Assembly (NCBI RefSeq): GCF_006265175.1
Contig: NZ_VDCQ01000022.1
Span: 60,560 to 124,559, forward strand
Origin: Paenibacillus hemerocallicola
Lineage (GTDB): Bacteria; Bacillota; Bacilli; Paenibacillales; NBRC-103111
Direction of reading: 5' to 3'
Length of the DNA: 64,000 nucleotides
The translations under genes and the position numbers were made by a program. The notes under the pieces were generated by a model. It ran no database searches. It worked only from the letters and a program-made list of their open reading frames with translations, and was not told the origin of the DNA. Each line of letters begins with the position of its first letter. The first letter of the stretch is position 1. This document shows, one piece after another, positions 36,478-51,775 of the stretch.

Positions 36478-37188
36478 TTACTCGAACCATTGCAGACGCT
36501 TGTTCAGCGCGCCTCTCGGCACCATGAATCCTTGCGCGCGCTTGAAGTAGACCGGCGCCCCGCGTACGACCGTCAGCGACTTGTAATAGTCGATGTACGG
36601 GAAGCCGTACGTTTCCCCGCGAGCGAAGGCGTATACGCCGAGCGCCTTGATCCAGGCCTCGAACGCTTCCTCCGGAATGTCGACGAACACTTCCGGCACG
36701 AATTCGTGCATATCCTCCCAGTTTTCCGAGAAGTACAGCTTCTTGGCGTAATGGCCCGGCAGCTCGCGCTCGATCTGCTTGAGAGCGGCGTAGAAGTGGG
36801 CATCCTCGACGATCGCGTGCGTGTTCGCGTGGTCTTTGTGAATGCTGTTTTTCCAATGAGTAATGATAATGTCCGGCTTGATCTCGCGGATGACGTCGGC
36901 CACTTCGTATTTGATCTGATCGTTGACCGGGATTTCCGCATCCTTGTACTGCAGATAACGCACGTCGGCGCCCAATATTTCCGCCGCTTTGTACGATTCC
37001 TCGATCTTCTGCTTGGCGTATTCCTCCGGCGACAGACGCGGATGCCCTTTCTCTCCGGGACTTAAATGAAGAAACGTCGCCTTGTGGCCGGCCTGCGTAT
37101 ATTTCGCGATCGTCGCTCCGGCTGTCAGCTCCTGATCTCCCGCATGGGCGCTGATCGCCAGGATATGATGCTTCTGTTGTTCGGACAT
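36478..37188 (-). CDS. PIG-L/LmbE-family deacetylase-like protein, copy 1
   Basis: The protein has 236 residues from the ATG at 37188 (GGGAG 8 nt upstream). The family removes acetyl from N-acetylglucosaminyl groups with a zinc held by AHPDDE and HPDH motifs. Here the first motif reads SAHAGDQEL: the zinc His and Asp remain, but the position of the catalytic-base Asp is Gly. The second reads HKDHANTH. It is very similar to the protein at 40999-41709. Its neighbour is a double-GNAT protein, and NamZ lies upstream, so a cell-wall amino sugar is a plausible substrate. Confidence 0.82.
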   Translation of the reverse strand: MSEQQKHHILAISAHAGDQELTAGATIAKYTQAGHKATFLHLSPGEKGHPRLSPEEYAKQKIEESYKAAEILGADVRYLQYKDAEIPVNDQIKYEVADVIREIKPDIIITHWKNSIHKDHANTHAIVEDAHFYAALKQIERELPGHYAKKLYFSENWEDMHEFVPEVFVDIPEEAFEAWIKALGVYAFARGETYGFPYIDYYKSLTVVRGAPVYFKRAQGFMVPRGALNKRLQWFE

Positions 37189-37258
37189 GGTATGTTCTCC
37201 CTCCATCTATCTATCGCCGCCCTTTAACGGCCCGTCTCTCAGCTGTAAACAGTCGGCT

Positions 37259-38212
37259 TCAAAAGCTTTTCTTGCATACATGGAAACGCCGCGAAATCTC
37301 GAAGCCGAGCTTCTTGTACAAATGCCCTGCCGTCGTCGTCTCCCCGGTCCATAGAAACCAGGCGCCATGCAGCCCTTGAGCCCGCATATTGGCCAAACAA
37401 TCGTGCAGCAAAATTTTGCCGAGCCCTTTCCCCTGCTGGGACGGATCTACGCCGAACGGGCCGAAGCGCTCGAGAATGCCTTCATAGCCGCCGTGCATGC
37501 AGAAGCCTACGAGCTTGCCGTTCTCCCGCGCCACATGGATCGCGCCGAGCGACAGCCCGCGAAGCACGCCCTCGCGAATAGCGCGTCCCCAGTCCGGGTT
37601 GAACGCGTCGGTGGCGAAGCGGATCACTTCCACGAGGTCGCTGTCCTGCGCCAGACGGAACGTATAGCCTTCGCCTTCGCGCTCGCGCTTCAGCGCTCGG
37701 ATATCTTCGGGCACGGAGTAACCCACGAGCGAGTAATCCATGGCTACAGGCGAATACAGCCGGTTGAAGCCGAGCTTTTGCAGAAGCTCGTAGCCTTCCG
37801 GATAGCTGTCCGCGTCTACGCCGGGCACAAAATAGTTTGGCGCGTAGGAAGAGAAAAATACGTGCTTGCGGCCTTGCCCGGTCAAAAATTCGAACGCGTC
37901 CCGCATGAGGCGGGTCCCGATTCCGCCGCGGCGCTTATCCTTTGCCACGAAGAAAAACGTGATCCAGCCGTTATCCGGCTCCAGCTCGGTTTCGTGCATC
38001 GGCAGCAGTCTTCTCAGGCTGTATACCGCTCCGACCAGTCGTTCGCCCTCGAAGGCGAGCCGCAATCCCGCCGGATCGAAGTTGGCGTCCAGCAGCACCA
38101 TATTGCGGAACCGAAGCGGCGTGATCGGATCGTGGTGCAGGCTTTCGTTCCATAACGCCACGATAGCCGCTTCATCGCCCGGCTCGTAATGCCGGTAGTT
38201 GATTTGTGCCAT
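37259..38212 (-). CDS. Double-GNAT-domain acetyltransferase, copy 1
   Basis: The 317-residue protein has two GNAT halves. The first (1-150) has DKRRGGIGTRLMRDAF and the second (190-317) has DPSQQGKGLGKILLHDC, both R/Q-x-x-G-x-G/A acetyl-CoA loops. Length and two-domain plan recall mycothiol synthase MshD, but identity is not claimed. It lies 21 bp after namZ and 70 bp before a PIG-L gene, and the pair is repeated at 40999-41709 and 45114-46067. It probably acylates the amino group that the deacetylase partner exposes, or a muropeptide amine. Confidence 0.82.
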   Translation of the reverse strand: MAQINYRHYEPGDEAAIVALWNESLHHDPITPLRFRNMVLLDANFDPAGLRLAFEGERLVGAVYSLRRLLPMHETELEPDNGWITFFFVAKDKRRGGIGTRLMRDAFEFLTGQGRKHVFFSSYAPNYFVPGVDADSYPEGYELLQKLGFNRLYSPVAMDYSLVGYSVPEDIRALKREREGEGYTFRLAQDSDLVEVIRFATDAFNPDWGRAIREGVLRGLSLGAIHVARENGKLVGFCMHGGYEGILERFGPFGVDPSQQGKGLGKILLHDCLANMRAQGLHGAWFLWTGETTTAGHLYKKLGFEISRRFHVCKKSF

Positions 38213-38233
38213 GCCTGATCTCCCCTTTACGGC

Positions 38234-39415
38234 TTATTCGTACAGCAAGTAAGCCTCGCGCGTTTTGGCCCATTCGGCCGCTTCCCGGTCCCATTCGTCC
38301 GCGATTCGCTCGGCCGCTCCGGCTTCGTGCAGCGTCAGCCGCACCTTGTCGCTGCCGGTCAGCAAATCGATAAATCCTTTCGAGCCTTCCTTGAAAGGCG
38401 GAAGCCAGGCGAAATGCTCCTCGTGTTGCTCCTGAATTTGTCTCAGCAAATAGAGTCCGGTCCGCACGGCCCGATATTCCGCCGGATCGTTGACATACAA
38501 TTGTACGCCGCTGCACAATTCGCCCTTCTGCTTGGAGAACATCGGGGTGAAATACACCGGGTGGAACGTAACTCCCGGAAGTCCCCGCTTATTCATCGAA
38601 TCGGCTACGCGTCTGCCGTCGAGCCAAGGCGCTCCGATCATTTCGAACGGCCGTGTCGTCCCGCGTCCTTCCGAAAGATTCGTCCCCTCGAACAAGCAAG
38701 TACCGGCGTACACCCTTACTGTATCCATCGTCGGCATGTTGGGCGAAGGCATAATCCAAGGCAGCCCGGTCTCGGGATATTCCATCTCCCGGCGCCAACC
38801 GTCCAGCGGCACGACTTGGAGGCTGCACTTTAGTTCCGATTGGTCATTGACCAGCTTGGCGAATTCGCCGATCGTCAATCCCGTACGAAACGGAATCGGC
38901 CAACCCCCGACCATCGACTGATAGCCGTCGCGAAGAATGCCGCCTTCCACGTTCCGTCCACCGAGCGGATTCGGGCGATCGAGCACGATCAGCTCCTTGC
39001 CCGCCTTCGCGCATGCCTGCATCGTATAGATCAACGTAGTCAAATACGTATAAAACCGCACGCCCAAGTCCTGAAAGTCAAACACGATCGCATCGACCGT
39101 CTCCAGCATTTCCGGCGTCGGCGCCCGGTGCTTCCCGTACAGGCTGTATACGGGAATGCCGAGAGCGGGATCGGTCTCGTCCTCGAACAGCAGCCCCGCC
39201 TGCCGCTCGCCGCGGATGCCGTGCTCGCAGGCGAACAATGCCGTCAGCTTCCCGGCCGACTGTCCCGCGCACACATCAACGGTTGAGCGGAAATTTCGCG
39301 TAATTCCGGTAGGGTTCGTCAGTACGCCGATCCGTTTGCCGTCCAAGTAAGCCGAGGCCGATCGTTCCAGCCGGTCGGCGCCCGAAAGTACGGGCTGCAG
39401 CTTCGACAGTTCCAT
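38234..39415 (-). CDS. namZ: NamZ-type exo-beta-N-acetylmuramidase (DUF1343, GH171)
   Basis: The protein has 393 residues from the ATG at 39415 (GGAGG 8 nt upstream). DUF1343 blocks are clear: RIGVLTNPTGITR, LFACEHGIRG, VDAIVFDFQDLGVRFYTYL, VLDRPNPLGG and PSPNMPTMDTVRVYAGTCLFEGTNLSEGRGT (in part). Bacillus subtilis NamZ releases MurNAc from the non-reducing end of peptidoglycan fragments. Unlike that secreted enzyme this one has no signal peptide, so it should act on fragments already imported, in line with the ABC importer in the same locus. It has its own promoter and operator. Confidence 0.87.
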   Translation of the reverse strand: MELSKLQPVLSGADRLERSASAYLDGKRIGVLTNPTGITRNFRSTVDVCAGQSAGKLTALFACEHGIRGERQAGLLFEDETDPALGIPVYSLYGKHRAPTPEMLETVDAIVFDFQDLGVRFYTYLTTLIYTMQACAKAGKELIVLDRPNPLGGRNVEGGILRDGYQSMVGGWPIPFRTGLTIGEFAKLVNDQSELKCSLQVVPLDGWRREMEYPETGLPWIMPSPNMPTMDTVRVYAGTCLFEGTNLSEGRGTTRPFEMIGAPWLDGRRVADSMNKRGLPGVTFHPVYFTPMFSKQKGELCSGVQLYVNDPAEYRAVRTGLYLLRQIQEQHEEHFAWLPPFKEGSKGFIDLLTGSDKVRLTLHEAGAAERIADEWDREAAEWAKTREAYLLYE

Positions 39416-39502
39416 TACAAATTCCTCCACTCCGTTTCAATATTCGCTTTCTCGCTGCTCCTTATGAATCGAATCCAAAAATCGGTTTGTCGCTACAGCC
39501 CC

Positions 39503-39530
39503 ATTATAGCACTATGAAACAATATTTCAA
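39503..39530 (-). promoter_or_regulatory. namZ promoter with overlapping MurR/RpiR-type operator
   Basis: Minus-strand -35 TTGAAA (39530-39525), 16-nt spacer, -10 TATAAT (39508-39503). The palindrome TGAAATATTGTTTCA (39515-39529) covers the -35 and spacer, so a bound repressor would exclude polymerase. A further AT-rich palindrome lies at 39547-39561. Confidence 0.7.
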
Positions 39531-39561
39531 TTATAATTATATAATATAAAATAATATTTTA

Positions 39562-40108
39562 CATAAAGGCACAGCAAGGCTATGGCTGCAAGTGTTGGGG
39601 ACGCCTGTCAGCCTGGAATCGAATAGGAGCGGGCAATCTGATCAGCCTTCATGCTCCGGTTTACTCCGGTTCGATCCGGTTTGGCCCATCGAGTCCGCCG
39701 CATGTCTGCTTCCAACCGGTATTCGACTTTTATCCCCTTCAGTCCAAATAGATGGAAAACCTGCACCTAATATCCGTCTCGAAGGTCGTCTCCGACATTT
39801 AACGGGAAAACCTACAGCTATTTCCCCGCCATCAAGGCGAACGGGGCCCAGACGGGACAAATAACTGGACTTTTTGCAGCTAATGTACGTTAAGCATACT
39901 CCATGATCGAAAATAACTGCATATTTTCCATCTGCCGGCGGGAGGGACCGAGGACCGAGGACAGGGGTGACCGATGTGACCGGGGTGACCGGGGTGACCG
40001 GGGAAAACCCGGAACGCGGGAACATCACCGCGCCGCGTTCGACCGACCGCCGTCATGCAGCGCGACACCACTCGCCGGGAGCTGCCTGCGGTGCGGGAAG
40101 CACCGGCT
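39562..40108. other. Intergenic region between the rpiR-like gene and namZ, with a 4 x 9-bp repeat
   Basis: No gene is supported. At 39967-40002 there are four tandem 9-mers (GTGACCGAT, then GTGACCGGG three times). Around 39755-39930 the motif family GGAAAACCTGCA / AAAACCTACAGCTA / TTTTTGCAGCTAAT / CTGCATATTTTCC recurs at irregular spacing, like another short dispersed repeat. Confidence 0.5.
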
Positions 40109-40966
40109 CTATTTTTTCGTCTCGATCCGCTCCATATCCCGCAATACTTTGCGGCTGCGCTCCAAATATACTACCGATTCCGCATAATTGGCGCTGGCCA
40201 CGCTCAAATATAAAATATCGATCAAATTCAGCTGCGTAATCCGCGACGTCATCGCTCCGCTGCGTATTTCGTTCTCGGTCGACGCGATGTAGAGCGGAAT
40301 GCCCGCTACGCCGCCCAACGTCGTATTGCCGTATTTGGTAATGCAGATCGTGGCGGCTCCGGCTTCATTCGCATACATCAGGCTCTGGATAACCGGCTTC
40401 GTCTCGCCCGAATACGAGATGCCTACCGCAACGTCATCGGCTTGGATCGTAACGGCCGCGGTCAATTGCACGGTCGGATCGGTAAAGGTGAACGACGCTT
40501 TGTTAATGCGCAGAAACTTTTGCTGGGCGTCCTGCGCGATCAGGTTGGACGCTCCGGTCCCGAAGAAAAAAATGCGGCTCGCCTTGCTGAGCGCTTCGAC
40601 CGCCCGCTGCAAATGGCCGAGGTCCAATATTTTCATCGTGTCCCGGATCGACTGCATGTTGTTGTGCGACACATTTTGCACGATCGACCCGATCGGATCG
40701 TTCGGGCTGAATTCCCGGTATTCATACGTTTCCTGCATTTGCAGGTCTCCGACTACTTTCATTTTCAGATCCGGGTATCCCTTGAACCCGAGCGATTTGC
40801 ACAACCGGATAATCGCCGCCTGGCTGCCCCCGCTCCGTTCCGCCAAATCGGCGACCGACATGTGCGCCATTTCCTCCGGATGAGCCAAAATATATTCCGC
40901 GATAATACGCTCCGATGGCGTAATGTGCTGCACCATTTCCCTTATGCGAACCAACCCGCCGTTCAA
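40109..40966 (-). CDS. RpiR/MurR-type transcriptional regulator
   Basis: The protein has 285 residues from the TTG at 40966 (AAAGGTGG 7 nt upstream). It has an N-terminal RpiR HTH (MSVADLAERSGGSQAAIIRLCKSLGFKGY in part) and a C-terminal SIS sugar-phosphate domain (ASRIFFFGTGASNLIAQDAQQKFLR; VAVGISYSGETKPV). RpiR proteins near murQ (MurR) sense MurNAc-6-phosphate. It is last in the ABC operon, and the repeated TGAAA-N5-TTTCA sites at 39515 and 46339-46424 are its most likely targets. Confidence 0.86.
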   Translation of the reverse strand: MNGGLVRIREMVQHITPSERIIAEYILAHPEEMAHMSVADLAERSGGSQAAIIRLCKSLGFKGYPDLKMKVVGDLQMQETYEYREFSPNDPIGSIVQNVSHNNMQSIRDTMKILDLGHLQRAVEALSKASRIFFFGTGASNLIAQDAQQKFLRINKASFTFTDPTVQLTAAVTIQADDVAVGISYSGETKPVIQSLMYANEAGAATICITKYGNTTLGGVAGIPLYIASTENEIRSGAMTSRITQLNLIDILYLSVASANYAESVVYLERSRKVLRDMERIETKK

Positions 40967-40998
40967 TTCGATTCCACCTTTGCCGTTTGCCGGCCGTC

Positions 40999-41709
40999 TT
41001 ATTCCAACCACTGCAGCCGTTTGTTCAGGCCGCCCTTCGGCACCATAAATCCTTGCGCGTGCTTGAAGCGAACCGGAGCTCCCCGGACGACCGTCAACGC
41101 TTTGTAATAGTCGATATACGGGAAGCCGTACGTTTCCCCGCGAGCGAACGCGTATTGGCCGAGCGCCCTGACCCAGGCGTCGAACGCTTCCTCCGGGATG
41201 TCTATGAATACTTCCGGCACGAACTCGTGCATATCCTCCCAGTTTTCCGAGAAGTACACCTTGCGCGCGTAATGGGCAGGAAGCTCCCGTTCGATCGTTT
41301 TCAGAGCGCCGTAAAAGTGCGCGTCCTCGACGATTTTGTGCGTGTTCGCATGGTCCTTGTGAATGCTGTTTTTCCAGTGCGTGATGATGATATCCGGCTT
41401 TAGCTCCCGGATGACGTCCGCCACTTCGTATTTGATCTCGTCATGAACCGGAATTTCGGCGTCCTTGTAGGACAAATAGCGGACGTCGGCTCCGAGTATT
41501 TCCGCCGCTTTATACGATTCCTCGATTTTTTGCTTGGCGTATTCGTCGGGATTCAGACGCGGATGGCCTTTCTCCCCCGGGCTCAAATGCAGGAAAGTGG
41601 CCTTATGGCCTTCCTGCGTATATTTCGCGATCGTCGCGCCGGCCGTCAGCTCCTGGTCTCCCGCATGGGCGCTAATGGCCAATATGTGCTTTTTCGGTTG
41701 ATCGGACAT
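40999..41709 (-). CDS. PIG-L/LmbE-family deacetylase-like protein, copy 2
   Basis: The 236-residue protein (AAGGAG upstream) is a close paralogue of the protein at 36478-37188, nearly identical through most of its length. It has the same altered motif SAHAGDQEL, where the catalytic-base Asp of AHPDDE is Gly, and HKDHANTH. It sits between the permeases and the RpiR gene, so its expression is tied to amino-sugar import. Retention of the same substitution in both copies argues against random decay. Confidence 0.82.
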   Translation of the reverse strand: MSDQPKKHILAISAHAGDQELTAGATIAKYTQEGHKATFLHLSPGEKGHPRLNPDEYAKQKIEESYKAAEILGADVRYLSYKDAEIPVHDEIKYEVADVIRELKPDIIITHWKNSIHKDHANTHKIVEDAHFYGALKTIERELPAHYARKVYFSENWEDMHEFVPEVFIDIPEEAFDAWVRALGQYAFARGETYGFPYIDYYKALTVVRGAPVRFKHAQGFMVPKGGLNKRLQWLE

Positions 41710-41758
41710 GTCTCATTTCTCCTTTTTATTGTATCCGTTTTGGGGCGGAATTCAAACG

Positions 41759-42634
41759 CTACTCCTTCAAGCCCGAATTCATCATGCCGCGCACGTAATA
41801 TTTTTGCAGGAATATGAAGACGAGCAAAATCGGCACCGTGCTGATGACGAGCGCCGCGTTGACGAGCGGCTGGGTCATATTGGAGTCGAGGTGAGACTTC
41901 AGCTGCTGGATGCCGACCGGCAGCGTCGCCAAATCTTTATTGACGGTATACATGAGCAGCGCCCATATGAACTCGTTCCAGCTGCCGATAAACTCGAAGA
42001 TGGCCAGCGTCGCGAGAGCCGGTACCGTCATCGGCAGGATGAGCTGGAAAAAAATGCGCAGCTCCGACGCCCCGTCGATCCGCGCGGCTTCGATATAAGC
42101 GTCGTTGATCGTCATAATGAACTGGCGCATCAGAAAGATGCCGAACGCGCTGACCGTAAACGGCAAAATGAGCGCAAGCGTATATTTCGCCATGCCGCCG
42201 TCCCCGCCCTCGCCCATCCAATCGTTGCCCCCTACGAACGGGAAATGCACCATGATGTAGAAGTTCGGGATGAGAAACAAAAACGCCGGGAACATCATCG
42301 TCGCCAGAATGAAGCGAAAAATCGTCTTTTGTCCGCGAAAGCGCAGCTTCGTCAACGCGTAGCCGGCCAGCGAGCTCGTCAGCAGCACGATCGCCGTCGT
42401 CACGACGGACTTGATCAGACTGTTTTTGAACAACAGCCCGAGCTTGAGCTGCTCGAACGCCGTCTCATAATTGCCGATCTCGAACGTCTCCGGCAGCAGC
42501 GAATAATCGAGCCGGTTGTAATCCGCCGGACCTTTGAAGGAGGAGAAAATCATCTCGAGAAACGGGAACACCATCATGATGCTTCCGATAATAATGACCG
42601 TGTACGAAAACCATGGAAATTTTTTCGGTTTCAT
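41759..42634 (-). CDS. ABC sugar permease, MalG/UgpE type
   Basis: The 291-residue protein starts at an ATG that shares its A with the stop of the partner permease (TGATG). It has about six membrane segments and an EAA loop EAARIDGASELRIFFQLILP. It belongs to the CUT1 carbohydrate importers, a different branch from the LplB/YtcP cassettes elsewhere in the window. No ATPase is encoded here; a shared MsmX-like ATPase is likely. Confidence 0.9.
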   Translation of the reverse strand: MKPKKFPWFSYTVIIIGSIMMVFPFLEMIFSSFKGPADYNRLDYSLLPETFEIGNYETAFEQLKLGLLFKNSLIKSVVTTAIVLLTSSLAGYALTKLRFRGQKTIFRFILATMMFPAFLFLIPNFYIMVHFPFVGGNDWMGEGGDGGMAKYTLALILPFTVSAFGIFLMRQFIMTINDAYIEAARIDGASELRIFFQLILPMTVPALATLAIFEFIGSWNEFIWALLMYTVNKDLATLPVGIQQLKSHLDSNMTQPLVNAALVISTVPILLVFIFLQKYYVRGMMNSGLKE

Positions 42635-43536
42635 CAGTAACTTTCCACTCCCCCCCGGCGAAATACGGTCAGCTGAATAATAGTGACGATAAAGACGCAG
42701 ATGAACAGCACGAACGCCATCGCGCTGGCCGTCCCCCAGTTGCCGTAGGAGAACGCCTGATTGTACATTTCCAGACCGCCTACGTTCGTCGAATTGCCGG
42801 GACCGCCGTTCTTCGTCATGACGAGCGACAGCGTGAACGATTGCAGTCCTCCGATAAAGGAAGTAATAAGTACGAATAAAATGGAAGGCTTCAGCAGCGG
42901 CAGCGTAATTTTCGTGAAAATGGCCGTCAGGCCTGCGCCTTCCAGCGTAGCCGCTTCGTAGAAATCGTCGGAGATCGCTTTGAGCCCGGCCGTCAGGATA
43001 AGCACCGAGCTGCCGATACCGAGCCAGCCGCCAACGACGATAATCGAGGCGAGCGCGGTGTTCGGATCGTCGAGAAATTTGATCGACGACACGCCGAGCT
43101 TGTTCAGGACGGCGTTGATGAGGCCGTTCGTCGGATTGTACAAGTACAGCCACACATTGCCGATAGCCACAACCGTCGTCACCGTAGGCAGAAAGTACAG
43201 CGTCCGCCAGAACCCTTCATACCGAAGACGGGTAATCATGTACGCTACCATGAGCGCGATGAAAAACGACAAGCCGACCGTGCCGAACGCGAATACGAAC
43301 GTATTCTTGATGATCGGATTGACGAAGGTCGAGCCGTCGGCGAACAGCGCTTTATAGTTTTTCAGCCCGACCCAGTCGATCAGCGTAAGGTCGAAGCCGC
43401 CCCATTCCGTAAAGCTTAAAAACAGCGAGAAAAACAGCGGAATGAGGAAAAAGATCGCATAAAACACGACGACCGGCGATAAAAACAACCAGCCCAAAGC
43501 TCCTTGGCCGCGGTTCAGTTTGTTATTTCCGCTCAT
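42634..43536 (-). CDS. ABC sugar permease, MalF/UgpA type
   Basis: The 300-residue membrane protein has the EAA loop YEAATLEGAGLTAIFTKITLP and a typical CUT1 N-terminus (GWLFLSPVVVFYAIFFLIPL). It forms the channel with the next gene. It is separated from the binding-protein gene by 107 bp with a terminator-like hairpin. Confidence 0.91.
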   Translation of the reverse strand: MSGNNKLNRGQGALGWLFLSPVVVFYAIFFLIPLFFSLFLSFTEWGGFDLTLIDWVGLKNYKALFADGSTFVNPIIKNTFVFAFGTVGLSFFIALMVAYMITRLRYEGFWRTLYFLPTVTTVVAIGNVWLYLYNPTNGLINAVLNKLGVSSIKFLDDPNTALASIIVVGGWLGIGSSVLILTAGLKAISDDFYEAATLEGAGLTAIFTKITLPLLKPSILFVLITSFIGGLQSFTLSLVMTKNGGPGNSTNVGGLEMYNQAFSYGNWGTASAMAFVLFICVFIVTIIQLTVFRRGGVESY

Positions 43537-43583
43537 GCATTGCCACTACTCCCTTCCCCGAAAAGTAAAGCATGTCGTGCGGT

Positions 43584-43613
43584 AAAAAAGGTCGGGCCGG
43601 AATACCCGGCCCG
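43584..43613 (-). terminator. Terminator-like hairpin between binding-protein and permease genes
   Basis: CGGGCCGG (43593-43600) pairs perfectly with CCGGCCCG (43606-43613) and runs into T6 on the minus strand (43589-43584). It probably stops part of the transcripts, so that the binding protein is made in excess over the permeases. Confidence 0.8.
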
Positions 43614-43643
43614 CGCTTCCCCGCCATGGCTCGGCGGATTCTC

Positions 43644-44969
43644 TTATTCGGCCGCCAGCTTCGCTTGGATATCTTTTTGCGCCGCTTGCACCGCCGCGTC
43701 CGTCGTCGCTTGGCCGGTCCATGTCGCTTCGATCTGCTTGAACAGGATATCCTGGATTTCCGTTCCGGCAGCCGGGTTCGGTTCCGGAATCGCATAGTTG
43801 AGCGCATCCACGAACGTTTTCAGCACGGCGTCGTCAGCCAGCTTGTCTTTGATCGGCTTCGCGTCGAGGTCGGACTTGCGGGTCGACAGCGAGTTGAACG
43901 CGTCGAGCAGGAAGCTGCCCTCCGGCGTAAGACCGTCTTTGACCGACACGGTGTTGAACCATTTCAGAAACTCCCAAGCTTCCTTCTGATGCTTCGATTT
44001 GTTGTTTACGCCCCACATCCACGTATAGGCGACCGAGCCTTTCTTCGAGCCGTCCGGGGAAGGCAGCGGAGCGGCGCCGATGTTTTTGTACGCGTCCTTC
44101 ATCGTGCCCTGCAGGGAACCCGCATACCATCCGGCTTGGATCGTCATGGCCGTCTGCTCGGCCGGGAACGTTTTGCTTACGCTGAACGAGACGTCGGCGA
44201 TGCCGTCCTTATAAAACTTCGCGGCGTAATCCATCGTCTTCTTGCCCGCGTCGGAATCGAGCTGCGCTTTTTTCAGGTCGTCGCTGATCAGTTGGCCGCC
44301 TGCGGTCGCCATGAGCGACATGAAGGGCTGGTCGACAATCGAAGCGTAGCCGCGGGCGAAGCCGAAGCCTTGCTGCGTAATTTTGCCGGAGGCGTCTTTT
44401 TTCGTAATCGCCTTGGCCATGTTGTACATTTCGTCCCACGTTTTCGGCGGGTTGTCGAAGCCGGCATCCTTCAGCATTTTCTTATTGTAGAATAAGGCGT
44501 AGGCGTTTACTTCGGTCGGGAAGCCGTACACTTTGCCTGCGATCGAGGCGCCCTTGATGGAAGCGTCCGGATAGTTTTTCTTGATATCGTCCGTGACGTC
44601 GGCCGGCGGCTCGGCGAGCACCTTATTCTTCGTCAGCTGTCCGCCCCAGAGCGAATACACGTGCATAATGTCGGCGACTTGGCCCGCCGTCTGCTTGGCC
44701 TGGATCGTCTTCAGCAGCTCGCCGAAATCGACCGGCTCCAGCTTTACTTGAATGTCCGGATGATCTTTGTTCCACATGTCGACGTACGGCTTGAGCTTCT
44801 CGTCTTGAGCTCCGGCATAGTGCGATAACAGCGTAAGGGTTACCGGACTTTTCGAGCCGCTTCCGTTTCCTTCCGAGCCTTCCTTGCTCGAGCCGCAGGC
44901 GGCCAAGCTTACGGCCAGCGCCGATGTAACGGTAAGGCTGATTGCGCGTGTGGCGAATTTCTTCTTCAT
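43644..44969 (-). CDS. Family-1 solute-binding lipoprotein, candidate MurNAc/amino-sugar binder
   Basis: The protein has 441 residues from the ATG at 44969 (GGGAGG upstream). The lipobox SLAAC makes Cys25 the lipidated residue, followed by a Gly/Ser linker. Typical CUT1 binder blocks are FPTEVNAYALFYNKKMLKDAGFDNPPKTW (in part) and AYTWMWGVNNKSKHQKEAWEFLKWF. It is encoded between GNAT copy 2 and the permeases in the murQ locus. The ligand is inferred from context to be MurNAc, a MurNAc-disaccharide or another amino sugar. Confidence 0.85.
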   Translation of the reverse strand: MKKKFATRAISLTVTSALAVSLAACGSSKEGSEGNGSGSKSPVTLTLLSHYAGAQDEKLKPYVDMWNKDHPDIQVKLEPVDFGELLKTIQAKQTAGQVADIMHVYSLWGGQLTKNKVLAEPPADVTDDIKKNYPDASIKGASIAGKVYGFPTEVNAYALFYNKKMLKDAGFDNPPKTWDEMYNMAKAITKKDASGKITQQGFGFARGYASIVDQPFMSLMATAGGQLISDDLKKAQLDSDAGKKTMDYAAKFYKDGIADVSFSVSKTFPAEQTAMTIQAGWYAGSLQGTMKDAYKNIGAAPLPSPDGSKKGSVAYTWMWGVNNKSKHQKEAWEFLKWFNTVSVKDGLTPEGSFLLDAFNSLSTRKSDLDAKPIKDKLADDAVLKTFVDALNYAIPEPNPAAGTEIQDILFKQIEATWTGQATTDAAVQAAQKDIQAKLAAE

Positions 44970-45113
44970 GAAATAGACCTCCCTGAAAATGTTGGTATAT
45001 AAAGGATTCGGTCCGTTCGGCTGCGCCGAAGCAAGAAGGCGCAGCCTGCTTTCCGAACCAAGGAAAACCGCATGAACCCGATTTCCGGCGATATTCCGCC
45101 GCATCCGAAACGT

Positions 45114-46067
45114 TTACAAGCTTTTCCGGCAAACGTGAAAGCGGCGCGTAATATGGAAGCCGAGCTTTTTGTACAAATGTCCTGCCGTCGACGTTTCCCC
45201 GGTCCACAGAAACCAGACGCCGTGCAGCCCTTGCGCCCGCATATTCGCCATGCAGTCGTGCATGACGATTTTGCCGAGTCCTTTCCCCTGCTGGGACGGA
45301 TCGATGCCGATCGGACCGAACCGCTCGAGGATGCCCTCATACCCGCCATGCATGCAGAAGCCGACTAGCTTCCCCCGCTCCCGGACGATATGGATCGCGG
45401 AGAGCGGCAGCCCGCGAAGCAAGCCTTCCCGGATCGCCCGGCCCCAATCGGGGTTGAAGCTATCGGCGGCGAAGCGGATCACTTCGACAAGATCGCGATC
45501 CCGGGCAAGAGCGAACGTATACCCTTCCGACTCCCTTTGCCGCTTCAAAGCCTTGATCTCCTCGGGTACCGAATACCCTACGAGCGAGTAATCCATCGCT
45601 ACCGGGGAATACAGCTTGGAGAAGCCCTGCTTTTGCAACAAAGAGTAGCCTTCGGGGTAGCTGCTCTCGTCGATGCCGGGAACGAAATAGTTCGGCGCGT
45701 AGGACGAGAAAAAGATGTGCTTGCGACCAAGCTCCGCAAGAAATCCGAAAGCGTCCCGCATAAGCCGGGTGCCTATCCCTTGGCGGCGATAATCCGGAGC
45801 GACGAAGAAAAACGTGATCCAGCCGTTATCCGGCTCCAGCTCCGTACCGTGCATCGGCAGCTGCCTTCTTACCGCGTAAACCGCTCCGACCAGCCGTCCG
45901 TCCGCGAAGGCGAGACGACATCCTTTGGGATCGAAGTTGGCGTCGAGCAGCACCATATGACGGAATCGCACAGGCGTGATCGGGTCGCGATGCAAGCATT
46001 CGTTCCACATCTCCACGATCGCCGCCTCGTCTCCGGGCTCGTAGCAGCGGTATTCCAAACTATCCAT
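45114..46067 (-). CDS. Double-GNAT-domain acetyltransferase, copy 2
   Basis: The protein has 317 residues from the ATG at 46067 (AGGAAGGA upstream). It is aligned end to end with copy 1 at 37259-38212; stretches such as EPDNGWITFFFVA, SSYAPNYFVPG and SPVAMDYSLVGYSVPE are shared, with scattered substitutions. Both acetyl-CoA loops (RRQGIGTRLMRDAF; QQGKGLGKIVMHDC) are intact. It is first in the ABC importer operon. The duplication with its PIG-L partner suggests dosage or two related substrates. Confidence 0.82.
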   Translation of the reverse strand: MDSLEYRCYEPGDEAAIVEMWNECLHRDPITPVRFRHMVLLDANFDPKGCRLAFADGRLVGAVYAVRRQLPMHGTELEPDNGWITFFFVAPDYRRQGIGTRLMRDAFGFLAELGRKHIFFSSYAPNYFVPGIDESSYPEGYSLLQKQGFSKLYSPVAMDYSLVGYSVPEEIKALKRQRESEGYTFALARDRDLVEVIRFAADSFNPDWGRAIREGLLRGLPLSAIHIVRERGKLVGFCMHGGYEGILERFGPIGIDPSQQGKGLGKIVMHDCMANMRAQGLHGVWFLWTGETSTAGHLYKKLGFHITRRFHVCRKSL

Positions 46068-46262
46068 GTTCGGGGTTCCTTCCTCTCTTCTCATTCGAAC
46101 GGGTCCGTCTAGACGGGGACAGCCGCTTTGACCGTTCACGGCTTTGCAGCTTTATCGCTTTGGTTGCTTAAAGCTCCGGCCAAAGATGTTGCTTATGCCG
46201 TTTGGCTTGCGTCGAAATATCGACGTGTCTTTTTTTTCGTTTCACCGTTATAAATCTAAATT

Positions 46263-46276
46263 TGACAACGCTTTCA
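46263..46276. promoter_or_regulatory. Putative CcpA (cre) site
   Basis: TGACAACGCTTTCA fits the cre consensus TGWNANCGNTNWCA at every position. It lies downstream of the leftward promoter at 46398-46425 and upstream of the GNAT start, where a roadblock would give glucose repression. Confidence 0.55.
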
Positions 46277-46290
46277 CAGACCCCGGTATA

Positions 46291-46327
46291 TGTTAAGTCG
46301 GAAATCGTTGATCCGCAGGACTTAACA
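46291..46327. repeat. 9-bp inverted repeat in the ABC operon leader
   Basis: TGTTAAGTC (46291-46299) and GACTTAACA (46319-46327) are perfectly complementary with a 19-nt loop. No T run follows. It may be a leader stem-loop or an operator. Confidence 0.55.
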
Positions 46328-46338
46328 ATTAGTACGAT

Positions 46339-46425
46339 CAAAATTTAATTTCAATCAGTGTCCAGAGTCTTAAAATTTATTTTCATCCACACGCCCCATT
46401 ATAGCATCGTGAAATTAAATTTCAA
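46339..46425 (-). promoter_or_regulatory. Promoter of the ABC operon with three MurR/RpiR-type operator copies
   Basis: Minus-strand -35 TTGAAA (46425-46420), 16-nt spacer, -10 TATAAT (46403-46398), identical in plan to the namZ promoter. The site TGAAATTTAATTTCA (46410-46424, read on the minus strand) covers the -35 and spacer. Two further 15-mers, at 46339-46353 and 46371-46385 on the plus strand, each match it at 13 of 15 positions. Confidence 0.68.
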
Positions 46426-46451
46426 CAATAAAATAATATTTAAAAAAATAT

Positions 46452-46481
46452 TTTACAGACAAGCCCTTTATCGTTTATAGT
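46452..46481 (+). promoter_or_regulatory. Candidate sigma-A promoter of murQ
   Basis: Plus-strand -35 TTTACA (46452-46457), 17-18-nt spacer and -10 TTATAGT (46475-46481). It faces away from the ABC operon promoter. The leader to the start codon is about 260 nt, and no gene was seen in it. Confidence 0.5.
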
Positions 46482-46750
46482 AAGAAAAGCTTCTATCGAC
46501 GCCTTCCAGTGATGAGCGACCGCGATTTAACCGCAGCTTATTGTTGGTATGGAATACCTAATTAGTTACGGATAAGCATTCCTTAACGTTAAGAAAATCG
46601 TCTTTGCGAGCGGATTCTATAATGGCTTATATCGGCCTGAGCCGAAGAAGGGCGTCCTTATTTTACCCGCCTGCCCTATCCGGATTTCAGAGCGCACATA
46701 GACAACTTCTCGATGCCCATCTATGAGAAAACAGTTGCGGAGGGATTTTG

Positions 46751-47671
46751 ATGAACTATTCTTTGGAAAGATTGATTACGGAGCGCCAAAACGAAAGGAC
46801 GCGCGACATCGATCGGGTGTCCACGGTCCGCATGCTCGAGCTTATGAACGACGAGGACCAGCTGATCGCCGCAGCGGTCCGGAAAACGATTCCCGAGATC
46901 GGGAAAGCCGTCGATCTTATCGTGGCCCGATTCCGTCTTGGAGGCAGACTATTCTATGTAGGGGCGGGAACTAGCGGCAGGCTGGGCATACTCGACGCAT
47001 CGGAATGTCCTCCGACGTTCGGAACCGATCCCGGGCTCGTCCAAGGCATTATCGCCGGAGGAGACACGGCCATTCGTACGGCGGTCGAAGGCGCGGAGGA
47101 TAACGAAGCGCTCGGAGCGGAGGATATCGAACGATGCCATGTAGGCGCAAATGACGTCGTAGTCGGGATCGCCGCCAGCGGACGCACCCCATACGTCATC
47201 GGCGCGATGAAGCATGCCAAAGCCGCAGGCGCCGCGGTCGTCTGCGTATGCAACAACCCGAATACGGCGATGGGCCGGCACGCCGATGTCGCGATCGAGG
47301 CGGTCGTCGGACCGGAAGCCGTTCTCGGCTCCACGCGGCTGAAGGCGGGTACCGCGCAGAAAATGATATTGAATATGCTTACAACGACCTCTTTCATCCA
47401 GATGGGCAAAGTTTACGGCAATTTGATGGTGGACATGCAGGCCACCAACGTGAAGCTCGTCAACCGGGCCAAGCAAATGATCCGCATGGCTACCGGCGCT
47501 CCCGAGGACGAGGTGGAGCGGGCATTCCATGCTACGAGCGGCCACGTCAAGACGGCCACCGTCATGATTGCCACGAACTCCCCGTACGAGCAAGCGACGA
47601 CGCTCCTCGAGCAATCGCACGGCTTCGTCCGCGAAGCGATCGATAACGGTTTGGCGCAGAAGCGGTCTTAA
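46751..47671 (+). CDS. murQ: N-acetylmuramic acid 6-phosphate etherase
   Basis: This cytoplasmic enzyme cleaves the lactyl ether of MurNAc-6-phosphate to give GlcNAc-6-phosphate and D-lactate. The 306-residue protein has the SIS fold with FYVGAGTSGRLGILDASECPPTFG (in part), which contains the catalytic Glu, and VVGIAASGRTPYVIGA. Its length is typical. The ATG at 46751 has GGAGGG 6 nt upstream. It is divergent from the ABC/PIG-L/RpiR operon. Its substrate must be phosphorylated, but neither a MurP-type PTS nor a MurK-type kinase is encoded in the window. Confidence 0.95.
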   Translation: MNYSLERLITERQNERTRDIDRVSTVRMLELMNDEDQLIAAAVRKTIPEIGKAVDLIVARFRLGGRLFYVGAGTSGRLGILDASECPPTFGTDPGLVQGIIAGGDTAIRTAVEGAEDNEALGAEDIERCHVGANDVVVGIAASGRTPYVIGAMKHAKAAGAAVVCVCNNPNTAMGRHADVAIEAVVGPEAVLGSTRLKAGTAQKMILNMLTTTSFIQMGKVYGNLMVDMQATNVKLVNRAKQMIRMATGAPEDEVERAFHATSGHVKTATVMIATNSPYEQATTLLEQSHGFVREAIDNGLAQKRS

Positions 47672-48082: not shown

Positions 48083-49339
48083 TCACGCCTTCCCCGCGTA
48101 ATGGAGCGTCAAGCTCCGGATCGCGGGCTCGCCGTCGCTTTCCAATATGTCGAGGACGATTCCCCTCGCCTTGACGGCCGGCAGCCGGACGATCGCCTTA
48201 TGTCCGATGTTCCGGCCTTCGTATATCCGGAACGGACGGCGGGATTTGGCGGTTATGATCGAGAGGGCGAAACGCTTGACGCTTTCGCCTTCCGTCAAAT
48301 CCTCTCCGAGCACGACGTGGTCGATCAATTGCGCTTCTTTCGTGTCGTACACCCACTTGCCTTCCCGCACTTCAAAATCGGCAAGCGTCGCTATCGGCTT
48401 GCCGTAACGTCGGCGAATTTCCGCACCGAATTCGAGCAGGCGCTCCGCATCGATATCCGGAAACAATCCGTCGCGGTCCGGTCCGATGTTCAGCAGCAGG
48501 TTGGCCCCGCGTCCGACCGAGAGCGAGTACAGCCCCATCAATTCCTCCAAGCTTTTGAGCGCATGTGCATTGTCGTCGCTATAAAACCAGCTGGAGCGCA
48601 GCTGCACATCGCATTCGGCAGGCAGCCAGAGCCGGTCCTTCAGCTTTTCCTTATCGTCGGTCATAATCGAAAAATCGGTCGAATCGACCACATTCCAGCA
48701 TGGAATCGGCGCAATGCCGTCTTCGTTGCCGATCCAGCGAAAATCGGGATCGCCCATGTTGAAAATCAATATATTCGGCTGCAGACGGCGGATTTCGCCG
48801 ATAATGCGGGGCCAGTCGTAGTCGTGATTTTCGGAGCCGCAGCCGTCGAACCATAATACGTCAATTTCCCCATAACCGGTCAGCAGCTCGGTAATTTGCC
48901 CTACGAAATAGTCGTCATACGCCTGGGCATCCTGGTTGTAAAAATCGGCGGAGCCATCATACGGAGAATAGTAAATTCCCGGTTTGACCCCATATTTGCG
49001 GCACGCCTCCACAAACTCCTTCACTACATCGCCTTTTCCCTCTTTCCAGGGAGACGCGGAGACGGAAAACGTCGAATATTTCGTAGGCCAATTGGAAAAT
49101 CCGTCATGGTGCTTGGCGGTCAGCACCGCATAGTTCATTCCCGCTTCCCTGGCGGTCCGGATCCATTGCCCGCAATCCAGCCTGACCGGATTGAAAGCGG
49201 AAGGCGACATCGGCCGTTTATCGAAATCGACATAACCTTCATAAAACGTGCGAAGCCCGAAATGCAAAAACAGTCCGAATTCCCATTCCTGAAAAGCAAG
49301 CTGCCGGGCAGTCGGCTTGGTGCGCGGCGAGACCGTCAT
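48083..49339 (-). CDS. GH29 alpha-L-fucosidase, cytoplasmic
   Basis: The 418-residue protein starts after AAGGAG. Family blocks are FGLFLHFGLRTFYEG, NYAVLTAKHHDGFSNWPTKY, and IDVLWFDGCG with the nucleophile Asp, plus GANLLLNIGPDRDG. The C-terminal beta domain is short. There is no signal peptide. It lies 61 bp after the GH95 gene in one operon. Together they would remove alpha-1,2 and other fucose links from imported oligosaccharides. Confidence 0.9.
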   Translation of the reverse strand: MTVSPRTKPTARQLAFQEWEFGLFLHFGLRTFYEGYVDFDKRPMSPSAFNPVRLDCGQWIRTAREAGMNYAVLTAKHHDGFSNWPTKYSTFSVSASPWKEGKGDVVKEFVEACRKYGVKPGIYYSPYDGSADFYNQDAQAYDDYFVGQITELLTGYGEIDVLWFDGCGSENHDYDWPRIIGEIRRLQPNILIFNMGDPDFRWIGNEDGIAPIPCWNVVDSTDFSIMTDDKEKLKDRLWLPAECDVQLRSSWFYSDDNAHALKSLEELMGLYSLSVGRGANLLLNIGPDRDGLFPDIDAERLLEFGAEIRRRYGKPIATLADFEVREGKWVYDTKEAQLIDHVVLGEDLTEGESVKRFALSIITAKSRRPFRIYEGRNIGHKAIVRLPAVKARGIVLDILESDGEPAIRSLTLHYAGKA

Positions 49340-49400
49340 AATCGTTTCTCTCCTTATATCGAATAGTTTTACGATACCTTTAATCGGAGACCGGTGACTG

Positions 49401-51701
49401 TCACACGCTGCAGATCCGGTACGTTTGACCGGCTTTCGTTTCGAAGCGCAGCAGACCTTCGCCCCTGCTTATTTCATCGCCCGAACTCTGGTCTGCGCTG
49501 ACCGAAAGCTCAATATCCGTCCGTACGGCACATACCCCCCCGTTCATCGAGCGAACCACTGCGGCGGCCAGCTTTCCTTCCGCCCATTCGATGTCGACCT
49601 CGAAGCCGCCTCTCGCCCTCAAGCCTTTGACCTTTCCTCCCGGCCACGCTTGCGGCAGCGCCGGCAGCAGCTTCAGCTCTCCTCCGTGCGACTGCAGCAG
49701 CATTTCCGCAATCGCCGCCGCGCCGCCGAAATTGGCGTCAATCTGGAACGGCGGATGGTCGCCGAATAAATTCGGATGGACCGAATGGCGCAGCAGCGCC
49801 GATAAGTTTTCGTAAGCCTGCTCCGCGTCTTCGAGACGGGCCCAGAAGTTAATGATCCACGCCCGGCTCCAGCCCGTATGCCCGCCGCCGTTCGCGAGCC
49901 TACGCTCCAGCGTTACCCGGGCCGCGCGGGCCAGCTCCGGAGTGCCGCGCACCGTAATTTGCTCGCCCGGATGCAGGGCGAACAAATGCGAGATATGCCG
50001 ATGTCCCGGCTCCGGCTCCTCGTAATCGACCGACCACTCCATAAGCTGCCCGTGCCTGCCGATTGCCGGCTCCGGCAGCTTCCGGATCGCTTCCTCCAGT
50101 TTGCCGCGAAACCCCTCGTCCACGCCGAGCCGCAGCGACGCTTCGATGCAGCCGCCAAACAAGGCGTGCACGATTTGCGTATCCATCGAGGGGCCGACGC
50201 ATAAGCAGCCGGTATTGCCGTTCGGCAGCGCATATTTGTTTTCCGGAGACAAGGAAGGAACCGTTACGAGCCGTCCTTGCGCATCCAAGACGAGAAAATC
50301 GAGGAAAAACTGCGCCGCCTCCTTCATGACGGGATAAGCCCGCTCCGACAAGAAGCTGTCCGACACTCCGTACTTGTAATGCTCCCATAAATGAAGGGCC
50401 AGCCAGGCGCCTCCGGTTGGCCAAAACACGGCCGGCACATAAGAGCCTTGAATGGCGGTATCCGCCCACAGATCGGTGGCGTGATGGGCGACGAAGCCTC
50501 CGACCCCGTACACCGTTTTCGCCGTCCGGCGTCCATTCACCCGGAGACGGTCCAGCAAGTCGAACAGCGGTTCATGGCATTCGGCGAGATTGGCCACCTC
50601 GGCCGGCCAATAGTTCATTTGCAGATTGATGTTGATATGATAGTCGGCATCCCACGGAGGCGTATGGCTCTCGCTCCATATTCCTTGCAGATTCGCGGGC
50701 AAACTGCCCGGTCTGGAGCTGGCCATCAGCAAATATCGTCCGTATTGGAAAAACAGCGCCTCCAAGCCGATGTCTCGTTCCCCGTCCCGCACCCGTTTCA
50801 ACCGTACGTCGATAGGCAATGCTTCCGTTGCTTCGCGCACCGGATCGGGCACATCGAATTCGAGCTCCACCCGGTTGAAAAGCGAACGGTGCTCCGCCCT
50901 ATGGCGGTCGCGCAAAGCGGCATATCCCGATCGCACGGCGGCATCCGCCTGATCCAGGCAAACGCCTCGAGGATCCTCGTGGCGAAACGAGGTTTGCGCC
51001 GCCACGATCAAGGTAACCGCGTCGGCGCCTTCCACGGATATGTAATTGCCGATTGTCCGCACAGTGCCGCCTTCGGCGTCCGCCCTCAGCACGGTACTGT
51101 ACCGGATTCCGTCGTCTCCGCATCTTCCGCTCATGGCAAGCGCTTTCTCATCGATGAGCTCGACGACTCCCTCGAACGGGCGTCGGTTGACAATCGCGCT
51201 GAACGTCAAGCTCCCCGGCTTGTCGGCGGTCAGCCGCATGGCCATCACCTGATCGACCGCGCTTGCAAACAGCTCTCTGCGAAACGTTGTCCCCGAGGCC
51301 GTATATTGGACCGTCGCAATGCCGTCTTCCAGATCAAGCTCGCGGACATAGCCGTTTACTTCTCCCCGCATACCCTCGAAATGAAGCTTCAGGTCGCCGA
51401 GCGGCTGGTATGGACCGAAATGCTGCGGCGTCGACGTCATCCCGATCCGGGCAAGACGTTCCGCCTCCCGCGGCTTTCCTTCGAACAGCAGCCTGCGAAC
51501 TTCCGCAAGATGATGCAGCGCGTCGGGATTGTCGCGGATTCGGGGACCCCCGTACCATATCGAATCTTCGTTCATCTGAATACGTTCCTCGGCGATGCCG
51601 CCGAATACCATTCCGCCCAGCCGTCCGTTGCCGATCGGAAGCGCTTGCACCCAGTTTTTGGCCGGCTGCGCAAAGTTAAGCTTCAGGTTTGTATGGTTCA
51701 T
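49401..51701 (-). CDS. GH95 alpha-L-fucosidase (alpha-1,2 type)
   Basis: The protein has 766 residues from the ATG at 51701 (GAGGTAGG upstream). The N-terminal super-sandwich begins [27 protein letters not shown] (in part) and [11 protein letters not shown]. The barrel has [46 protein letters not shown] and [17 protein letters not shown], all diagnostic of family 95. No signal peptide, so it acts inside the cell. Some GH95 members act on alpha-galactosides instead; the GH29 partner favours fucose. Confidence 0.92.
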
Positions 51702-51727
51702 TATCCTACCTCGTTTCCCCGGAGTTA

Positions 51728-51773
51728 AGGTTACCGATAACCTCAATGTAAACGCAGTTTCCCTTTCTGTCAA
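51728..51773 (-). promoter_or_regulatory. Promoter and operator of the GH95-GH29 operon
   Basis: Minus-strand -35 TTGACA (51773-51768), 17-nt spacer, -10 TACATT (51750-51745). The 16-bp palindrome AGGTTACCGATAACCT (51728-51743) covers the expected transcription start, a classical repressor position. No local regulator gene is obvious. Confidence 0.7.
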
Positions 51774-51775
51774 TA

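Follow-up and report, generated by a model that had tools for sequence, protein, structure and literature searches.

In this study, we describe a cluster of cell-wall salvage genes in a 64,000-nucleotide stretch of Paenibacillus hemerocallicola DNA (the window; it lies on contig 83, the genome as a whole measuring 9.65 Mb). MurQ, NamZ, an RpiR-family regulator, the binding protein and permeases of an ABC importer and two pairs of a PIG-L-like and a double-GNAT protein, as listed in an initial annotation of this DNA, are all present according to Pfam and NCBIfam. On balance we favour the view that the locus serves the import of unphosphorylated wall sugars, their cytoplasmic breakdown to N-acetylmuramic acid (MurNAc), phosphorylation by a kinase encoded in trans and cleavage by MurQ, with the PIG-L/GNAT pair presumably resetting the N-acyl group on unusual wall amino sugars. 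The strongest new evidence is that the acetyltransferase and the PIG-L-like gene are present or absent together in the loci read, on a core pathway which also exists without them.

Concerning the pair as a unit, NamZ occurs in 92 of 149 genomes sampled from the order, and 41 of these 92 are devoid of the clade to which the PIG-L-like proteins of the window belong (called at E <= 1e-50). One NamZ locus each was read from 20 of the 41 clade-lacking genomes, chosen by hand; one of these loci (L157) has split genes. MurQ, a kinase and the permease pair were each found in 18 of the 20 loci. Neither a PIG-L-like gene nor a GNAT was matched in any of them, the GNAT search in those genomes covering these loci only. 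Within one genus, permease 2 is followed by AnmK, GNAT, PIG-L-like and NamZ genes in one genome (G104, locus L085) and by AnmK and NamZ in another (G077, L149). Within another genus, GNAT and PIG-L-like genes stand between permease 2 and NamZ in G128 (L114), and NamZ directly follows permease 2 in G138 (L148). A PIG-L-like gene without a GNAT of this family was seen at four places. One of them (L082) is uninformative, because its contig ends inside the first permease gene; the other three are related loci (L075, L077, L078) with a different GNAT-domain protein right after MurQ (PF13527 by Pfam in L078, with the same sequence start in all three).

The PIG-L-like clade itself is found in 51 of the 149 order genomes, at 55 places. 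The 55 neighbourhoods read (the two window copies, L018, L020 and L022 on contigs identical to those of G004 and G001, and L069-L118) were limited to 10 kb and by contig ends, and the genes of all loci were named after their best BLAST hit in a small reference set. Within this distance a permease pair was found at 52 places, a GNAT at 51, a solute-binding protein (SBP) at 49, RpiR at 44, NamZ at 43, MurQ at 42, a BadF-type kinase at 33, AnmK at 29, NagZ at 25 and an AmiE-like gene at 14; NamZ, MurQ, NagZ, AnmK or the kinase accompany 44 of the 55 places. The GNAT counts pool a close and a distant type of the protein, each represented by 35 aligned sequences. At 41 places the GNAT lies on the same strand and at most 150 bases from the PIG-L-like gene. 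For NamZ, the 43 places seen compare with about 0.2 expected by chance, if genomes of 6.5 Mb are assumed. All 51 clade-carrying genomes have NamZ, as against 41 of the 98 others; the Fisher values of our counts, about 1e-14, are not those of independent events, since the genomes are related.

The fullest arrangement (L085, L086) runs RpiR, MurQ, SBP, two permeases, AnmK, GNAT, PIG-L-like, NamZ, NagZ and BadF kinase. Other arrangements occur, as in L087, where the kinase stands ahead of NagZ and an AmiE-like gene and AnmK stand at the end. With mechanically called starts, the PIG-L-like and NamZ genes of L085 overlap by eight bases and the GNAT and PIG-L-like genes are two bases apart, thus the three are likely one transcription unit. 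All nine loci from named genomes have a GNAT of this family, one of them (L023) of the distant type. In Alicyclobacillus mengziensis the gene order is GNAT, PIG-L-like, MurQ. In a phylum sample of 299 genomes the clade was found in eight, the window genome included. The GNAT adjoins the PIG-L-like gene in all seven of these genomes that lie outside the order, and three of the seven (L127, L129, L130) have the wall cluster as well. A class sample of 249 genomes, searched with the close GNAT at E <= 1e-60 and thus for the close type only, yielded four genomes, again including that of the window. In the other three the PIG-L-like gene adjoins the GNAT, two of them being members of one family with very similar loci. 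One of these class loci (L139) reads NagZ, AnmK, NamZ, GNAT, PIG-L-like, AmiE-like, kinase, MurQ and an LdcA-family gene, the last of which points to peptide-bearing fragments. The name AmiE is a guess for genes of family PF00144: the protein of L087 best matches the PBP4B model of NCBIfam, with 174 bits against a cut-off of 385. Lack of conservation in relatives, a refuting outcome named in the initial annotation, was not found; the clustering beside NamZ and MurQ is conserved well beyond the genus. Given the neighbourhood counts in order and phylum and the joint absence from 20 of 20 loci, hitch-hiking of the pair is unlikely.

Members of the LmbE/PIG-L superfamily carry a motif HXD1D2 and a distant His, and D1 is the proposed general base; for BshB it was considered that the D1 residue may act as an acid instead (PMC4101496). 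In the window proteins the motif reads H-A-G-D, and no gap interrupts it in the alignment to solved relatives. Our clade alignment comprised 188 sequences (the best 120 of 838 database homologs, the two window proteins and 66 from the loci, some genes being included twice). The metal ligands His-Asp-His are kept, H15 and D18 in 187 of 187 readable sequences and H120 in 188 of 188. The substrate Arg (Arg53 of BshB, Arg68 of MshB) is replaced by Lys61 in all 188. Further residues invariant in the clade are Y57, Q60, S115, N156-W157-E158-D159, Y201 and Y202. In contrast, the other PIG-L proteins of the genome have Asp at D1 and Arg at the substrate position in seven of seven cases. The two window proteins score 104 and 102 bits with the BshB1 model TIGR04001, below its cut-off of 182.5, and a true BshB1 (278 bits) is encoded elsewhere in the genome. 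A role in bacillithiol synthesis was therefore rejected. Homologs with 55-57% identity occur in Nonomuraea, Streptosporangium and candidate Aerophobetes. Two Paenibacillus-type proteins (P0009, P0146) carry the label Chlamydia abortus in the database. For both, the longest contig measures 348,848 bases, and the label is most probably wrong.

The GNAT of the window finds its best PDB match, for both domains, in chains 5kga and 5kf1 (E 2.9e-8 as a single sequence), and a profile of the close GNATs matches them over positions 10-289 with E 4.8e-14. These chains bear the label 'predicted acetyltransferase' in the PDB; we take them to be GlmA of Clostridium acetobutylicum. The same profile also matches the GNAT part of RmNag (4zm6) with E 5.3e-6. 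RmNag is also a GH3 glucosaminidase, and its GNAT part is reported to acetylate glucosamine as well as chitosan oligomers (PMC4680927). GNAT domains are present in both halves of the two window proteins, and a double-GNAT architecture was shown for the close type only.

According to the reading that we favour, the importer would bring in MurNAc-containing di- or oligosaccharides or muropeptides, and NamZ would trim these fragments inside the cell, together with NagZ, AmiE-like and LdcA-family proteins that are encoded in relatives or at a second locus. MurNAc-6-phosphate would then be formed by a kinase of the BadF/MurK type or, where the ends are anhydro, by AnmK, and MurQ would remove D-lactate from it; the RpiR protein likely senses MurNAc-6-phosphate, as does E. 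coli MurR. The PIG-L-like metalloprotein would remove a non-acetyl N-acyl group or open an internal amide, whereupon the GNAT would re-acetylate the freed amine and the sugar could re-enter the NamZ, kinase and MurQ steps. These steps are the most likely ones judged by protein families, predicted location and gene context. A hydrophobic N-terminus was found in none of 47 NamZ, 29 NagZ and 15 AmiE-like proteins as compared to 34 of 45 SBPs, by a plain hydropathy threshold below which the window SBP falls (1.92 versus 2.2) despite its lipobox, clear by eye. Since signal sequences are missing, NamZ and NagZ are predicted to act inside the cell, and together with the lack of MurP this makes import, cytoplasmic cleavage, phosphorylation and MurQ the likely sequence of events. 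The order of the two editing steps is suggested by economy, because acetylating and then deacetylating one sugar would only waste acetyl-CoA. For the same reason a non-acetyl N-acyl substrate is the economical assumption: opposite effects on one acetyl group would be futile, yet the genes are kept as a unit. Candidate substrates are N-glycolyl muramic acid and muramic-delta-lactam. On foreign muramic acid the pair could exchange an N-glycolyl for an N-acetyl group, and for mycobacteria a replacement of glycolyl by acetyl during recycling of N-glycolyl muramic acid has been suggested (PMC13041923).

The kinase required by unphosphorylated entry is missing from the window and is found at a second locus of the same genome, on contig 157 (L030/L031). 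There, a BadF-type kinase gene (PF01869, 155 bits) and, behind it, a second MurQ gene are divergent from genes for a second SBP, two permeases, a hydrophobic protein of 242 amino acids, a second NamZ and NagZ; AnmK (C157:35707-36849) adjoins. The PDB chain closest to this kinase is 8zo3, named a MurNAc/GlcNAc kinase (GlcNAc, N-acetylglucosamine), with E 2.8e-43. Neither a PIG-L-like gene nor a GNAT of the window kind was matched in the 34 kb read at this locus. No MurP was found in the genome, which is listed as 100% complete: its sole PF02378 protein, a glucose/GlcNAc-type EIIC, scores 34.7 against a MurP cut-off of 516, and permeases stand where B. subtilis has MurP. The claim that an ABC importer takes the place of the phosphotransferase system (PTS) is supported by this, and import in unphosphorylated form with the kinase acting in trans is the reading consistent with the genome. 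Four MurQ-family matches at E <= 1e-40 were seen in the genome (contigs 82, 83, 157 and one further place), so MurQ function may be redundant. The hydrophobic protein of about 242 amino acids is without a Pfam match and recurs between permeases and NamZ (L030:12562-13290). It was found mostly in clusters without the GNAT/PIG-L pair, in 13 of the 20 PIG-L-lacking NamZ loci, and also in one cluster which has the pair (L080:3370-4119).

Several observations weigh against the proposed working. Most important, the general base D1 is Asp in none of the 188 clade sequences (Gly 177, Ala 10, gap 1). It is likewise missing, read off the alignment, from a protein of the same family, the 4-oxalmesaconate hydratase 5cgz, which has Ala at this position. 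Due to this loss, shared with a hydratase, the term deacetylase should not be presumed to apply. By its sequence the PIG-L-like protein departs from the canonical deacetylases, and it may not hydrolyse amides at all. Editing of the amino group, as initially proposed, stays the natural reading of the pair; the part assigned to the PIG-L-like protein as a deacetylase is not supported in the form stated. For the GNATs, the likeness to GlmA is limited and remote. In an alignment of 70 GNATs, the position of Asp287 of 5kf1, presumably a catalytic residue, is Leu in 27, Ala in five and Asp in three of the 35 close proteins; chain position 287, Asn in 5kga, aligns to a gap in all 35 distant ones. The one distant member searched, that of L085, matched 23 chains at E <= 0.01, and 5kf1 and 5kga were not among them. 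The distant GNATs of L085 and L023 have a Pfam GNAT domain in the C-terminal half alone, and the L023 protein aligns with the second window GNAT (GNATb) over 324 residues at 23% identity. As to context, six of the 55 places (L071, L072, L074, L081, L082, L088) are without any wall-salvage enzyme within 10 kb and five (L073, L076, L079, L083, L084) have an AmiE-like gene alone. In four of the seven distant genomes (L128, L131, L132, L133) no wall genes accompany the pair in the part that was read, and in three of these it lies on a contig under 15 kb. Finally, of the 95 NamZ places in the order, 53 are without a PIG-L-like gene in the surrounding 10 kb, so the core route can do without the pair.

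Among the other explanations, we consider one improbable but worth taking seriously: the GNAT alone would be the wall enzyme, namely a GlmA-like re-acetylase acting on de-N-acetylated wall fragments, and the PIG-L-like protein a divergent ordinary deacetylase that converts excess GlcNAc or MurNAc to free amines destined for catabolism, so that the two would shift the acetylation state in opposing directions. Both domains of the close GNATs are indeed related to 5kf1, reference lists contain the title of a paper on a glucosamine/glucosaminide N-acetyltransferase of C. acetobutylicum, and the PIG-L-like protein has retained its zinc ligands. For enzymes with opposing tasks, however, joint absence from 20 of 20 loci would be odd, and the catalytic base of the supposed deacetylase is gone. 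The protein could also be a lyase or hydratase like 4-oxalmesaconate hydratase instead of an amide hydrolase, acting on a MurQ product or on another acid, and the 5cgz chain likewise has Ala at the base position; this leaves the tight tie to an N-acetyltransferase unexplained, and we regard it as unlikely. Very improbable, finally, appears a role of the pair in making or repairing a glucosamine-based small molecule after the pattern of MshB and MshD, with wall genes nearby since both use amino sugars. It would fit the four of seven distant genomes in which no wall genes are near the pair, and the NCBIfam matches, to the MshD model for the GNAT and to MshB and BshB models for the PIG-L-like protein. 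These matches are weak, all under the curated cut-offs, the true BshB1 of the genome is encoded elsewhere, and core wall-salvage genes stand beside 44 of the 55 PIG-L-like places.

A more specific assumption is that the pair salvages muramic-delta-lactam, the sugar of the spore cortex: the PIG-L-like protein would open the lactam and the GNAT would trap the amine as MurNAc by means of acetyl-CoA, allowing spore-formers to eat shed cortex. We hold this to be decidedly unlikely. A striking parallel lies in SwsB, a protein of the CE4 deacetylase family which has lost the catalytic Asp and acts as a muramic-delta-lactam cyclase (PMC12444981), and in the D73N variant of PdaA, which keeps cyclisation and loses deacetylation (PMC12444981; PMC10116595). 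As cyclisation was reported to run to completion without energy input (PMC12444981), opening would have to be driven by a further reaction, which an acetyltransferase would supply. With ring closure being downhill, the lactam would open only when the GNAT traps the amine, and this would explain why the two genes are almost never apart. The parallel is weakened by the metal: SwsB does not depend on a transition metal, and zinc inhibits it (PMC12444981), whereas the clade has kept its metal ligands. Pfam finds PIG-L alone, and no CE4 polysaccharide deacetylase domain, in the PIG-L-like proteins of the window. SpoIVA was found in all 18 clade genomes tested (18 of 58, including all seven outside the order); this says nothing about the cassette, because 257 of the 299 phylum genomes have it too. 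AnmK is present in 50 of 51 clade genomes, and 38 of the 41 clade-lacking NamZ genomes have it as well, two of 91 AnmK genomes (G114 and G130, weak or fragmentary matches) having been dropped beforehand. AnmK goes with NamZ rather than with the cassette and therefore lends no support to lactam salvage. Nonomuraea, Streptosporangium and candidate Aerophobetes are not known to form endospores, and homologs outside the endospore-formers argue against a role confined to the cortex. In one distant genome the MurQ and NamZ genes flank that of a CE4 polysaccharide deacetylase (L127:6266-7183), whose N-terminus is hydrophobic as judged by eye. This protein was rejected as a delta-lactam gene, since it scores 159.6 with the PdaA model against a cut-off of 298.

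The features of the window locus are given in Table 1. All protein genes except MurQ, which is divergent from them, lie on the minus strand, in the order GNATb, binding lipoprotein, two permeases, PIGLb and RpiR, followed 678 bases further on by NamZ, GNATa and PIGLa.

Table 1. Genes and putative control region of the salvage locus (window positions; Pfam cut-off for PF02585, 28 bits)
Feature	Position	Strand	Basis and remarks
PIGLa, PIG-L/LmbE-like, block 2	36478..37206	-	PF02585 103 bits (Pfam); zinc ligands retained, Gly in place of the general-base Asp
GNATa, double-GNAT, block 2	37259..38212	-	Pfam; in profile A2, which matches PDB chains 5kga/5kf1
NamZ, exo-beta-N-acetylmuramidase family, block 2	38234..39430	-	Pfam NamZ_N (PF07075) 278 bits and NamZ_C (PF20732) 189 bits; hydrophobic N-terminus lacking, predicted cytoplasmic
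RpiR/MurR-family regulator	40109..41011	-	HTH_6 and SIS (Pfam); longest open reading frame, true start probably further downstream
PIGLb, PIG-L/LmbE-like, same noncanonical clade as PIGLa, block 1	40999..41709	-	PF02585 103 bits
CUT1-type permease 2	41759..42634	-	PF00528; start by reading, overlaps permease 1 stop
CUT1-type permease 1	42634..43536	-	PF00528
Solute-binding lipoprotein of the importer (SBP)	43644..44969	-	PF01547 (SBP_bac_1) 140 bits; start by reading; LAAC lipobox by eye
GNATb, double-GNAT, block 1	45114..46067	-	Pfam; both domains match 5kga/5kf1; start by reading
Divergent intergenic region GNATb/MurQ, likely control region (putative)	46140..46747	.	Map of open reading frames
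MurQ, MurNAc-6-phosphate etherase	46748..47671	+	TIGR00274 388 bits, cut-off 302

The RpiR regulator scores 118 bits with the MurR equivalog model of NCBIfam, the cut-off being 408. A Pfam scan of the ten cluster proteins found no ATPase, kinase, NagZ or amidase. What had been called a full CUT1 importer therefore stands as a binding protein with two BPD_transp_1 permeases, its ATPase subunit being absent from the cluster; CUT1 importers are usually served by a shared ATPase encoded elsewhere. An open reading frame resembling an ABC ATPase, judged by eye, follows the permeases of one related cluster (L080:2191-3297). The pairs are near-duplicates as initially stated, with 88% identity between PIGLa and PIGLb and 80% between GNATa and GNATb. 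Their duplication nevertheless looks old, because PIGLa is nearer to the PIG-L-like proteins of the NamZ-GNAT-PIG-L block in two other species (L019, L021; 95-96%) than to its neighbour PIGLb. The GNAT of L021 shows the same pattern (92% identity to GNATa), that of L019 does not (80%, the same value as between the two window GNATs). Overall, a fresh duplication is unlikely. The window locus seems to be composed of two older blocks, GNAT-SBP-permease-permease-PIG-L-RpiR and NamZ-GNAT-PIG-L. Short repeats, read from translations of open reading frames, lie at about 39960-40002 within the gap between RpiR and NamZ. Just past MurQ, two alpha-L-fucosidase-type genes of GH29 (PF01120) and GH95 (PF22124) lie on the minus strand at 48083-51779, possibly a separate glycan-use cluster. 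Two canonical-type PIG-L paralogs, very similar by eye, occur on two contigs of the same genome in matching oxidoreductase/isomerase-like clusters (L034:9300-10010, L036:8945-9673).

In comparison with known systems, the locus shares MurQ, a regulator of the RpiR/MurR family and NamZ, and in relatives NagZ and an AmiE-like gene, with MurNAc salvage in B. subtilis (murQ-murR-murP-amiE-nagZ-ybbC, where we take ybbC to be namZ). It differs in that ABC permeases replace MurP, a kinase is needed and the PIG-L-like/GNAT cassette is extra. Moreover, NamZ, NagZ and the AmiE-like proteins are without a hydrophobic N-terminus here, unlike in B. subtilis, whose NagZ is reported to be secreted (PMC4974736). 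With recycling in C. acetobutylicum it has in common a MurK-type kinase, intracellular cleavage and a two-domain close-type GNAT related to 5kf1, a remote match in which one position differs. Even though the gene neighbourhood of C. acetobutylicum lay outside our comparison, the joining of importer, NamZ and a PIG-L-like partner in the operons of relatives sets the present system apart. Uptake of muropeptides by an ABC system instead of AmpG has been described for YejBEF-YepA of Agrobacterium tumefaciens (PMC9790009). That is a peptide-type importer of a Gram-negative, while here a binding protein and permeases of sugar type are found. The PIG-L-like proteins belong to the same sequence family as BshB, MshB and TkDac and share their His-Asp-His metal ligands; in contrast to these deacetylases the clade has lost D1 of HXD1D2 and has Lys for the conserved Arg. 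In its workings only, SwsB is comparable as a deacetylase-family protein with a lost catalytic base which acts on muramic acid. It is a CE4 protein that acts on the spore cortex, forms the lactam and can do without a transition metal, whereas the present proteins are of the PIG-L family and keep all metal ligands. Streptomyces coelicolor is reported to have MurQ and a MurR-like gene without MurP, next to two genes of unknown function (PMC5061867). No description of this system was found in the open-licence literature, most papers of subscription journals lying outside that search. To this extent the statement that no described pathway has this set was upheld, even though parts of it have precedents in MurK, GlmA-type acetyltransferase and ABC import in Agrobacterium. 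As far as the literature search reaches, the novelty lies in the joined operon, in the cassette and in the altered clade of PIG-L-like proteins.

If the proposed route is true, Paenibacillus-type bacteria and several other Bacillota lineages would salvage MurNAc without the MurP PTS, and import of unphosphorylated fragments and their intracellular cleavage would be encoded in one regulated cluster. The cassette would then make it directly testable how wall sugars without an N-acetyl group return to metabolism. Moreover, loss of the general base across a whole PIG-L clade predicts a new reaction for the superfamily.

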